Positions 17,609 to 63,732 of a DNA stretch of 64,000 nucleotides are shown piece after piece (the stretch's first letter is position 1; each line of letters opens with the position of its first letter). Source of the stretch: Caldimicrobium sp. (lineage in GTDB: Bacteria > Desulfobacterota > Thermodesulfobacteria > Thermodesulfobacteriales > Thermodesulfobacteriaceae); NCBI GenBank assembly GCA_009903935.1, contig WYEG01000050.1, positions 1-64,000 of the forward strand. Reading direction: 5' to 3'. Under the pieces are notes generated by a model, which was not told the origin of the DNA, ran no database searches, and saw nothing but the letters and a program-made list of their open reading frames with translations. Made by a program: the position numbers and the translations under genes.

Positions 17609-17740
17609 CCCCGAGCGAAGCGAGGGGTCCCTCGGCGCTTACGCACCTCGGGATGACACACCGAAGCGCCGTCCCGAGCGAAGCGAGGGATGCACGGCTT
17701 GCGCTCGGCAGGACAAAAAATGGGCGCTCGGCAGGACAAA
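17609..17740. repeat. Cluster of GCGAAGC-type dispersed palindromes
   Basis: Two copies of CCGAGCGAAGCGAGGG (17610 and 17674 areas) alternate with CCTCGGGATGACA and two copies of GCGCTCGGCAGGACAAA (17701 and 17724 areas). The shared motif GTCATnCCGAGCGAAGCGAGG in both orientations is a widespread bacterial dispersed repeat whose arms can fold. It is continuous with the 21-bp array. Whether it is made into RNA is unknown. Confidence 0.75.
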
Positions 17741-17775
17741 GTAGGGGGACTTTTTTAAACAGCCTTCCATCCCTC

Positions 17776-17823: not shown

Positions 17824-17900
<77 letters not shown>

Positions 17901-23653: not shown

Positions 23654-25586
23654 AAGGTTTTACATCACTACCCCTATTTACTATGTAAACAGTCTCCCCC
23701 ATCTTGGGCATGCCTATACGACGATCGTTGCCGATGCCTTAGCAAGGTTCTACCGGCTTCAAGGGTATGAGGTCTTTTTCTTGACGGGAACGGATGAGCA
23801 TGGGGATAAGATTGCAAAGGCAGCGGAAGCTCAAGGCAAAACTCCAAAGCAATTTGTAGACGAAATAGCAAACACCTTTAAAGAAACTTGGGATAAGCTG
23901 GGGATAAACTATAGCTACTTTATCAGGACTACATCGGATAAACATAAACGGGTTGTCCAGCATGTGCTTCAGACCCTTTTTGATAAGGGAGAGTTTTACC
24001 TTGATGAGTATGAGGGGAACTACTGCTTTGGTTGTGAAAGATTCCTTACGCCCAAAGAGCTTGACGAAAAGGGGCTCTGCAAAGACCACAAGGCACCACC
24101 CGTCTATTTAAAGGAAAAAAACTACTTCTTTAACCTTGAAAAATACCGAGGCTGGCTTAAGGATTATCTCTCAAAGACCGAGGTTATCTATCCAAGCTTC
24201 TATCGAGAGGAGGTGCTAAACCTTCTTGAAGAGCCTTTACCTCCCCTTTGCATATCCCGTCCAAAGATAAGGCTTTCCTGGGGTATAGAGCTTCCTTTTG
24301 ATAAAGATTATGTGACCTATGTATGGTTTGATGCCCTGCTAAACTATCTAACGGGAATAGGCTACCCAGATGATCCTTCCTGGCAAGACTACTGGGCAAA
24401 CTCCCATCATCTTATCGCCAAAGACATCCTTCGTCCCCATGCCGTCTACTTCCCCATCATGCTAAAAGCCCTTGGAATACCAATGTATAAGAAGCTTTTC
24501 GTGCATGGCTATTGGCTTATGGGAAGCCTTAAAATGTCAAAGAGCCTTGGTAACATCGTGTCCCCCCTTGAGCTTTCCCAAACCTTTGGGGTAGACCAAG
24601 TAAGGTATTATCTACTTCGGGACATGGCTTTTGGGTATGATGCAGAGTTTAGCCTTCCTAACCTTATAAACCGCATTAATGCCGACTTAGCAAACGACTA
24701 CGGAAACCTTGTGAACAGAACTTTAAGCTTCCTTGAAAGAAACTTTGGCGGAACCATCCCTCCCTGGGGTGAGCTAACGCCTGAAGACAGAGAATTCCGC
24801 GAAAAGGTAGAAAGGGGAATCATTAGATACCTTGAAGAATTTCCCAGGCTAAACTTTCATACAGCATTGGAGGAGCTTTGGCAAGCCATTCGCTTTGCCA
24901 ATGTCTACATAGATAGGGAAGCCCCTTGGACAAGGGTTAAGGAAGGAAACTACCAAAGGGCAGGAACGGTCCTAAGGAATATTATTTCCGCCATAAAGAG
25001 CTTTGCCCTTGCCCTTTATCCTGTGCTTCCAAACTCTTCTCTAACCCTCCTTTCAGCCCTATCAGTCTTTCCGAACACCCCCTCTGTCATTCCGAGCGAA
25101 GCAAGCACCCTCTCCTTCAAAGACCTTTTCAACTGGGAGCTCCCAGCATCTGGTACAAAGATTAAAAGGTGCGGTCCCCTTTTCCCAAGGGTAGATGAGG
25201 AAAAAATTCTGAAGGAGGAGCAAAAAGTGGAAGTAAAGAAGGAGGCTGAAGTAAAGGAGGAGCCTCAATACATCACCATTGAAGAGTTTAGAAGGATTGA
25301 CCTTAGGGTTGCTAAGGTGCTTTTTGCGGAGAAGGTTGCTGGAGCAGACAGGCTTCTTAGGCTTGAAGTCAGCTGCCCTGAAAAAAGGCAGATAGTTGCT
25401 GGCATTGCTGAATACTATGAACCTCAGGAGCTAATCGGAAAAGAGATCATTATCGTTGCCAATCTCAAGCCAGCAAAGATAAAGGGCCTAGTATCTGAGG
25501 GGATGCTCCTTGCCGCAAAGGATGCTGACGGTTTAGCCATAATCATCCCAGAAAAAGAAAAAGAACCCGGAGCCAAGGTTGGCTAA
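23646..25586 (+). CDS. metG: Methionyl-tRNA synthetase with C-terminal tRNA-binding domain
   Basis: A 646-residue class I synthetase. The HIGH-type motif is in PHLGHAYTT, zinc-site cysteines are in YCFGCERFLT, and the KMSKS loop is LKMSKSLGNIV near residue 300. A C-terminal EMAP/Trbp-like domain covers about 540-646 (RIDLRVAKVLFAEKV, GLVSEGMLLAA). Between the anticodon-binding domain and this tail is a short segment, NTPSVIPSEASTLSF, encoded by a copy of the genome's dispersed repeat. The gene overlaps ricT and the FmdE-like gene by 8 bp each. Confidence 0.96.
   Translation: MDKRFYITTPIYYVNSLPHLGHAYTTIVADALARFYRLQGYEVFFLTGTDEHGDKIAKAAEAQGKTPKQFVDEIANTFKETWDKLGINYSYFIRTTSDKHKRVVQHVLQTLFDKGEFYLDEYEGNYCFGCERFLTPKELDEKGLCKDHKAPPVYLKEKNYFFNLEKYRGWLKDYLSKTEVIYPSFYREEVLNLLEEPLPPLCISRPKIRLSWGIELPFDKDYVTYVWFDALLNYLTGIGYPDDPSWQDYWANSHHLIAKDILRPHAVYFPIMLKALGIPMYKKLFVHGYWLMGSLKMSKSLGNIVSPLELSQTFGVDQVRYYLLRDMAFGYDAEFSLPNLINRINADLANDYGNLVNRTLSFLERNFGGTIPPWGELTPEDREFREKVERGIIRYLEEFPRLNFHTALEELWQAIRFANVYIDREAPWTRVKEGNYQRAGTVLRNIISAIKSFALALYPVLPNSSLTLLSALSVFPNTPSVIPSEASTLSFKDLFNWELPASGTKIKRCGPLFPRVDEEKILKEEQKVEVKKEAEVKEEPQYITIEEFRRIDLRVAKVLFAEKVAGADRLLRLEVSCPEKRQIVAGIAEYYEPQELIGKEIIIVANLKPAKIKGLVSEGMLLAAKDADGLAIIIPEKEKEPGAKVG
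25086..25105. repeat. Dispersed repeat copy inside the metG reading frame
   Basis: GTCATTCCGAGCGAAGCAAG lies in the metG linker and is read as VIPSEAS. It matches the repeat core seen in reverse orientation at 59155-59184 and 62563-62592, and in the 17.6-kb cluster. It keeps the frame open. Confidence 0.8.
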
Positions 25587-59120: not shown

Positions 59121-59154
59121 TGGGGTCTCCTTTCCTCTAAAGGTTCATGAGGGG

Positions 59155-59203
59155 TGCCTCGCTTCGCTCGGCATGACAAAGTGGGGGGAAAGGCATGACA
59201 AAG
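59155..59203. repeat. Dispersed repeat element, copy 1 (between mrdA and rodA)
   Basis: A 30-bp block (TGCCTCGCTTCGCTCGGC then ATGACAAAGTGG), 8 variable bases, then GCATGACAAAG. It is identical in both conserved parts and in spacing to 62563-62611. It fills most of the 84-bp gap after the mrdA stop. Confidence 0.9.
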
Positions 59204-61639: not shown

Positions 61640-62458
61640 TTATAATGGAATTTCTGGTATTTGCAGTATCACGGCAACCCAGTTCAAATTGTATACATCA
61701 ACATAAGGTCTTACTTCACCTTGCTTAAAAAGCCCTTGAGGGTCCTTGCTAACGGAAACGACCTCTCCGATGATTAGATTGGCAGGAAACAGGGCATCCT
61801 GCCCTGAGGTAACCACGATATCCTTTGGTTGAGCTTGGGAATAGAGCGGAAGGTATTCTAAAGAAAGAATAGGCTCGCCTTTTCCTCGGACTATAGCTCT
61901 ATCCCCTGTTCGCACTACTTTAACATCTACGGCAAAAGAAGGGTCGCTGATTAACATAACTTTACTAAAGTTTGGATATACTTCTATTACTTGTCCGATT
62001 AATCCTATAGCGGAATTACCAAAAAGGGCAAGCACAGGCATCTGGGGTTGAACACCGTCTTTGCTTCCTCGGTCGATAAGAATAAAATCCGAAAAGGGGT
62101 CGATGGCTTTATAGATTATCCTTGCCGGGACCTTAGGATGTTTAATGGATGAGGTAGCCTTAAGAAACTTCTCATACTCTGAGCAAAGCCTCATAGCATC
62201 ATGAGCCTCAGCAAGCCTTTGCTTCAATGCCAAATTTTCCTCCTTTAACTGCTGATTTTCCTTCTTTAGGTCAACAAGAAAGAAGTAGGAAGAGAAAAAC
62301 TCCTTAGTCTTCTGAGCAAGATGAGACTCAACGGAAAAAAATATCTTATACACTCCTCCAAAAAGGCTCTCAAAAAGCCTCCCTTTGTAGGATAACCAAA
62401 GGATAAACAAGACAAAAACTAAACCGAGAAGCGCAATGACCATGCGTCTGAGGTTCAT
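61640..62458 (-). CDS. mreC: Rod-shape protein MreC
   Basis: A 272-residue periplasmic scaffold with an N-terminal TM helix (about 6-22), a coiled coil (LKKENQQLKEENLALKQRL) and two beta-barrel domains (VPARIIYKAIDPFSDFILID, DRGSKDGVQPQMPVLA, VVTSGQDALFPANLIIGEVV). It organises PBP2 and RodA. mreB is not upstream; the neighbour is a divergent gene. The ATG at 62458 sits 6 bp after a strong extended -10, so the mRNA may be leaderless; an upstream TTG in frame overlaps that promoter and is unlikely. Confidence 0.93.
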   Translation of the reverse strand: MNLRRMVIALLGLVFVLFILWLSYKGRLFESLFGGVYKIFFSVESHLAQKTKEFFSSYFFLVDLKKENQQLKEENLALKQRLAEAHDAMRLCSEYEKFLKATSSIKHPKVPARIIYKAIDPFSDFILIDRGSKDGVQPQMPVLALFGNSAIGLIGQVIEVYPNFSKVMLISDPSFAVDVKVVRTGDRAIVRGKGEPILSLEYLPLYSQAQPKDIVVTSGQDALFPANLIIGEVVSVSKDPQGLFKQGEVRPYVDVYNLNWVAVILQIPEIPL

Positions 62459-62464
62459 GTATTT

Positions 62465-62473
62465 ATCATACCA
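62465..62473 (-). promoter_or_regulatory. Extended -10 promoter of mreC
   Basis: On the minus strand TGGTATGAT is an extended -10 (TGnTATAAT with one mismatch). The hexamer ends 6 bp before the ATG, placing the start point at the codon itself. No ribosome binding site is seen between. Confidence 0.55.
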
Positions 62474-62562
62474 CAAATAGAAGGTATTTCATGAGAATAA
62501 AAGGAGAGGGAAATCCCACTTGCCCTCTTGTGAAAAAACTTTAGAATAAACATTATGAGGGC

Positions 62563-62611
62563 TGCCTCGCTTCGCTCGGCATGACAAAGTGGCTAATAAA
62601 GCATGACAAAG
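62563..62611. repeat. Dispersed repeat element, copy 2 (between mreC and the HARP gene)
   Basis: Same 30-bp block, 8 variable bases and 11-bp tail as the copy at 59155-59203, in the same orientation. It ends 9 bp before the HARP start codon. Confidence 0.9.
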
Positions 62612-62620
62612 TGACTTATC

Positions 62621-63211
62621 ATGGAAAAAGAAAGGCTTGTTTGTGATACAAGCATCTTTACTAATCCGGATGTGTATGCCCAATTTGGAGATTCTCCCTC
62701 GGCTGCTTTTAAAAACTTCTTACTCATTGTAAGCGAAGTTGAGGGAGAAGTTTCGGTCTACATCCCTACTTCCATCTACGAAGAATTGAAGAGGATGATC
62801 TCTGACCTTAGGATCCCTCCCAAGGCTCGTTCAGTCCTCAAGATCAAATCTCCCAAAAAGTATGAGCTTTATATACCAGCTTTTTTGATGTATGAATTTA
62901 TAGAAGACTTAAGAGCAAGGATAAACAAAGGTTTAAGGGTTGCTGAGGAGGCCGTAAAAACTGCCCTTCAAAAAAAACCAGAAGAGGCTCTCAAATTTTT
63001 GCGCAGAAGATACCGAGAGGTCCTAAGGGAAGGTATCGTAGATTCTAAGGAAGATTTAGAACTTATTTTACTTGCTTTGGAGCTTGATGGGATAGTGGTT
63101 TCTGCTGACCAAGGCGTGTTGAAGATGGCTGATAAGCTGGGCTTAAGATTTCTTGACCCAAAGGAGATAAGAGACACAATCGAAGGCTTTAAATCTTGGT
63201 ATTCAGCTTAG
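62621..63211 (+). CDS. RNA-free RNase P of the HARP (Aquifex-type) family
   Basis: A 196-residue PIN-domain protein formerly annotated as RNA ligase partner. It begins ERLVCDTSIFTNPDVYAQFG with the first active-site Asp (Asp9). The acidic cluster Asp141, Asp145 and Asp163 (IVDSKEDLEL, VVSADQGVLK) has the spacing expected of HARP enzymes. A basic helical insert with FLRRRYREVLREG lies between. HARPs cleave the 5' leader of precursor tRNA without RNA. No ribosome binding site is visible. It diverges from mreC and its stop overlaps that of lptE. Whether the genome also has rnpA/rnpB is not visible here. Confidence 0.87.
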   Translation: MEKERLVCDTSIFTNPDVYAQFGDSPSAAFKNFLLIVSEVEGEVSVYIPTSIYEELKRMISDLRIPPKARSVLKIKSPKKYELYIPAFLMYEFIEDLRARINKGLRVAEEAVKTALQKKPEEALKFLRRRYREVLREGIVDSKEDLELILLALELDGIVVSADQGVLKMADKLGLRFLDPKEIRDTIEGFKSWYSA

Positions 63212-63732
63212 CGATTAAAGAGCTCTTGCATAATAAGCTCTGACAAATCCTTTACCAAAAGACGTAAAGCTTCGTCCTTACCAGGATTTAAAAGGTTTGA
63301 AGCAACCTCAGCCACGCGATAGGTTTCATACCTCGTAATCTTTGGATTTTCGTAAATCTTTTTACCCGTCCTTCTCTCGATTAAGGCAAACTTTCCTTCA
63401 AACTGGATGTTTCTTGTCTTAGTCTGTAAAAAGGTGGCGTAAGCCACGGGCTCAAAGTATACCTTTAAGACCTCGCCTTGGAGGATTAAATCTGCAGAAT
63501 CCGGGGAATAAACGGGAACCAAAAACCCGTCTTGGGCTATCTTTTTTCTTAACTCAAGGGCTAAGAGCTCCCCTACCGCCTTCTCACCTGTATAGTTCTT
63601 CCAGGGAGGAATGTAGATGGTTTTCCATTCCGGATTAAGAAGGGTTGGTTTTCCGGCAAGGGTATACCCACAGGCATAAAGGAAACAGCTAAACCACAAT
63701 ATTAATAAGCTTCTGAGGAACGAAGACCACAT
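63208..63732 (-). CDS. lptE: LPS-assembly lipoprotein LptE
   Basis: A 174-residue lipoprotein. The signal peptide ends in a lipobox with Cys21 ([12 protein letters not shown]), and the body has the LptE fold blocks [31 protein letters not shown] and [12 protein letters not shown]. It plugs LptD in the outer membrane and shows that the cell makes LPS. Its first 44 bp overlap the end of leuS. Confidence 0.88.

Follow-up and report, generated by a model that had tools for sequence, protein, structure and literature searches.

The window analysed here (64,000 nt from a Caldimicrobium sp. draft genome, whose assembly comprises 1.56 Mb in 68 contigs and is 97.4% complete) carries a gene, harp, which encodes a protein of 196 aa and is situated between mreC and a gene for an LptE-like lipoprotein. 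Upstream of harp, a candidate promoter is separated from the start codon by a copy of a dispersed repeat, a second copy of which lies a few kilobases away (Table 1).

Table 1. Features at and around the harp locus (positions refer to the window).
Feature	Position	Strand	Remarks
Second repeat copy	59147..59203	+	Between rodA and a penicillin-binding protein gene
mreC	61640..62476	-	Divergent neighbour upstream of harp
Candidate harp promoter	62520..62547	+	TTGCCC-N16-TAGAAT; ends 7 nt before the repeat; predicted (chance ~0.016)
Dispersed-repeat insertion	62555..62620	+	Between candidate promoter and harp ATG; shared repeat ~62555-62611; internal GCATGACAAAGTG repeat at 62579/62601
harp	62621..63211	+	196-aa HARP (PIN_5 / TIGR03875); catalytic Asp9/141/145/163, basic R98/100/106/128/132/136
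LptE-like lipoprotein gene	63208..63732	-	Tail-to-tail with harp, ends overlap by 4 nt

Judged from its sequence, the product of harp is a genuine HARP, i.e., an Aquifex-type RNA-free RNase P by family, as a preliminary description of this DNA had proposed. The Pfam profile PIN_5 (PF08745) spans the whole protein (E=1.1e-59; 201.8 bits, cut-off 27), and the model TIGR03875 gives 197.6 bits (cut-off 95.3); its title, "RNA ligase partner protein", is the former name of HARP. Among solved structures, the protein is best matched by RNA-free RNases P, represented by seven distinct sequences (E 3e-59 to 3e-44) and headed by 7e8k, the HARP of a Planctomycetes bacterium (structure names from PMC9051087). 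VapC-type toxins share the PIN superfamily with this protein, and VapC6 is the next PIN protein to follow the HARP structures. However, the VapC6 match is weak (E=0.003), HARP profiles and structures surpass it by about 50 orders of magnitude, the residues of the HARP spike helices are kept, and no antitoxin gene adjoins harp, its neighbours being mreC and lptE. The chance that the gene encodes a VapC-type toxin instead of a HARP is negligible, and scores and neighbours likewise rule out other PIN families, none of which comes close in score.

The preliminary description had also pointed to a pattern of four aspartates (Asp9, Asp141, Asp145, Asp163), and these are indeed invariant in an alignment of 67 HARP homologues. 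The same holds for R98, R100, R106, R128, R132 and R136 in the two long helices, while K103 is conserved at 94%. These aspartates and helix arginines correspond to the catalytic residues (Asp7, 138, 142, 160) and the tRNA-elbow residues of Aq880 (PMC8405995). HARPs form dimers and higher oligomers, in which one dimer grips the elbow of the tRNA and the Asp site of a partner dimer cuts (PMC9051087, PMC8266387); the residues required for this assembly and cleavage mechanism are all present in the predicted protein. As a HARP, it would be expected to assemble into dodecamers or at least tetramers. By homology, the product of harp would be a small PIN-domain metallonuclease that assembles into oligomers, with the basic helices of one dimer gripping the tRNA elbow, and the four-Asp site of the neighbouring dimer could then cut the 5' leader off the precursor tRNA. 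It resembles the solved HARPs (Aq880, Halorhodospira, Thermococcus celer, Planctomycetes bacterium) in its full-length match, the four aspartates, the basic spike-helix residues and its size, and no protein feature sets it apart from them.

HARP has already been documented in Thermodesulfobacteriota, alongside the RNA enzyme (PMC10941002). The nearest relatives of the present protein are found in Thermodesulfobacterium (82% at best) and Caldimicrobium (~77%), followed by Thermodesulfatator (~64%) and Thermococcus (~46%), and a HARP tree places it in the Thermodesulfobacterium/Caldimicrobium clade with a support of 99/99, its placement within the clade not being resolved. At every Thermodesulfobacterium/Caldimicrobium locus examined, harp and the lptE-like gene stand tail-to-tail, and this fixed arrangement across the clade indicates vertical inheritance. 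In total, HARP is carried by 36 of the 41 genomes of the order Thermodesulfobacteriales; three of the five HARP-less genomes are 64-72% complete, and the other two, G012 and G026, are 90% and 99% complete, respectively.

The 5' region of harp had been described as derived from a dispersed repeat and, oddly, as devoid of a ribosome binding site. The repeat is real: its 24-nt core occurs in two exact copies in the 64-kb window (at 62568 and 59160-59183; 0 expected by chance), and a third, diverged copy lies on a different contig (C57). As to the ribosome binding site, there is no Shine-Dalgarno-like motif in the 25 nt preceding the harp ATG, but this is usual for harp in the clade and not an oddity of the present gene. 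In 11 of 17 upstream regions from relatives, there is a promoter of the form TTGAC[C/T]-N16/17-TAAA[A/C]T, the end of which is only 6-8 nt away from the harp start codon (0.5 expected by chance; loci L052, L058, L059, L061, L088, L091-L095, and L102), which predicts a leaderless harp mRNA, and four other relatives have a Shine-Dalgarno-like GGAG, GAGG or GGGG upstream of the gene. A harp gene without Shine-Dalgarno motif is the usual state in the Thermodesulfobacterium/Caldimicrobium clade, most members of which look leaderless. The candidate promoter found here matches the geometry of the relatives' leaderless promoters. The simplest reading is that insertion of a ~66-bp repeat at the former start site may have given a once leaderless gene a short leader, supplied by the repeat itself. 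A structured 5' leader or regulatory hairpin in the repeat was considered as well and rejected, as the fold is no better than that of shuffled sequences (z=0.17). The predicted leaderless promoters provide a small new lead on the regulation of harp. The repeat family, with the core CATGCCGAGCGAAGCGAGGCA, also has related copies at 17670-17744 and 25078-25110, and the copies with this core at 59.2 kb and 62.6 kb are intergenic.

HARP and a full-score rnpB occur together in 31 of the 41 genomes of the order. Of the two genes for which the preliminary description had proposed to search the genome, rnpA was recovered (E=1.5e-21) and rnpB was not: the covariance models RF00010 and RF00011 gave no match in the source assembly, a divergent class B rnpB was sought there and not found, and blastn of a Thermodesulfobacterium rnpB against the assembly (E<=10), aimed at fragments, returned only chance pieces of 14-30 nt. 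The description had raised the possibility that the lineage has lost its RNase P RNA. HARP would then perform all tRNA 5' maturation, with rnpA as a relic, a view consistent with finding no rnpB in an assembly that is 97% complete, and HARP-only genera have indeed been reported in Aquificae and Nitrospirae (PMC6380272). However, rnpA lies intact in a complete rpmH-rnpA-yidD-yidC operon, a region that is reduced to rpmH-yidD-yidC in Aquifex (PMC10941002), and nearly all relatives retain rnpB.

Moreover, rnpB is not the only gene missing. In two sister genera, with which the HARP of the window groups (support 99/99), each of the 17 genomes with a full-length rnpB has this gene 21-1194 bp from engB, and in 15 of them the distance is within 100 bp. 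The source assembly also lacks engB, normally an essential gene, the search for which was answered only by Era/Der-type GTPases; two relatives with no full-length rnpB, G026 and G029, are likewise without engB. The absence of rnpB together with its usual neighbour is as expected for an assembly gap. In three other relatives for which no full-length rnpB was recovered, one contig breaks off within the 3' part of rnpB, immediately after engB (G025:C62, L170), another starts within engB (G028:C47, L171), and a third has only a short rnpB remnant at its start (G018:C180). Contig breaks within or next to rnpB/engB are thus recurrent in drafts of the group, and the absence of rnpB from such drafts is unreliable. 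The neighbours of rnpB and engB did not serve to place the gap: the radical-SAM gene of the Caldimicrobium arrangement is situated mid-contig here, beside L20/pheS, and the beta-lactamase-fold gene that neighbours rnpB in the G011/G014 arrangement is likewise mid-contig, beside other genes. In the relative G026, despite its completeness of 99%, neither HARP nor rnpB, engB or Rnl3 was found, a joint absence that probably reflects several gaps.

Together, the rnpA operon, the presence of both enzymes in most genomes of the order, the co-absence of engB and the contig breaks of relatives speak against a true loss of rnpB. Its absence from the draft looks like an assembly gap, in which we infer rnpB to reside, and a lineage that relies on HARP for all tRNA 5' maturation is very improbable. 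An equally slim chance is given to a variant of this idea, in which rnpB is truly gone from the genus and engB has either moved or disappeared, so that HARP alone and an orphan rnpA would represent a replacement intermediate independent of Aquificaceae. Aquifex aeolicus, with its HARP-only RNase P, uses the same enzyme family but has neither rnpA nor rnpB, whereas the rnpA operon is complete here. If it were true, loss of rnpB with retention of rnpA would capture a halfway stage in the change from RNA to protein catalysis.

Instead, as elsewhere in Thermodesulfobacteriales, HARP most likely works beside an RNA-based RNase P, consisting of rnpA and the rnpB assigned to the gap, and not as the sole RNase P as in Aquifex; we hold this reading with considerable confidence. 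It builds on family membership, the conserved active and binding residues, the conserved locus, the intact rnpA operon and the joint absence of rnpB and engB; oligomerisation, pre-tRNA cleavage, the location of rnpB in a gap and expression from an mRNA with a short leader or none are inferred. This is a HARP of a familiar type, belongs to an order for which the enzyme is on record, and very probably coexists with an RNP RNase P. In Thermodesulfatator indicus and relatives of the same order, HARP is likewise found beside the RNA-based enzyme and is vertically kept, according to a published review (PMC10941002); unlike there, rnpB is unrecovered in the present draft and a repeat is inserted before harp. 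As the evidence stands, the source genome is one more member of the order in which protein and RNA RNases P coexisted stably. The position of rnpB at contig breaks in several drafts of the group also means that HARP-only claims based on draft genomes need checking.

What HARP does beside the RNA-based enzyme is a separate question. Four recombinant bacterial HARPs were inactive on pre-tRNA in published tests (quoted in PMC12153264), and cleavage of pre-tRNA therefore cannot be assumed for the present protein. HARP might not be mainly a tRNA enzyme, but might pair with the RNA ligase Rnl3 in RNA processing or repair, e.g., by trimming ends before circularisation, while the RNP RNase P takes care of the tRNAs. 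Co-occurrence of HARP and Rnl3 has been published, as have HARP knock-outs without growth phenotype in two archaea (PMC12153264), and Rnl3 is present in the source genome (contig C52). A search of 45 genomes found it in 37, nearly all of which also have HARP. However, the ligase does not adjoin harp in Thermodesulfobacteriaceae. Instead, its neighbour in the source genome is a gene for the RNA 3'-phosphate cyclase RtcA, which precedes the Rnl3-type ligase gene with an overlap of 14 bp (L172:4541-6761, G000:C52). This pair recurs at three of four loci sampled in Thermodesulfobacteriaceae, in contrast to the pairing of HARP with the ligase known from other genomes, and a search of the available papers for RtcA together with Rnl3 or HARP found no relevant report. 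Moreover, every residue on which cleavage of pre-tRNA is known to depend is conserved, and in T. indicus, of the same order, HARP and the RNA-based enzyme are both reported as potential contributors to tRNA 5' maturation (PMC10941002). We consider a main role of HARP in RNA processing or repair with Rnl3 possible but rather unlikely, compared to processing of tRNA 5' ends beside the RNA-based enzyme. The window also includes an initiator-like tRNA-Met (17824-17900), the CCA of which is encoded; CCA-bearing precursors are reported to be cut more slowly by HARPs (PMC12153264).
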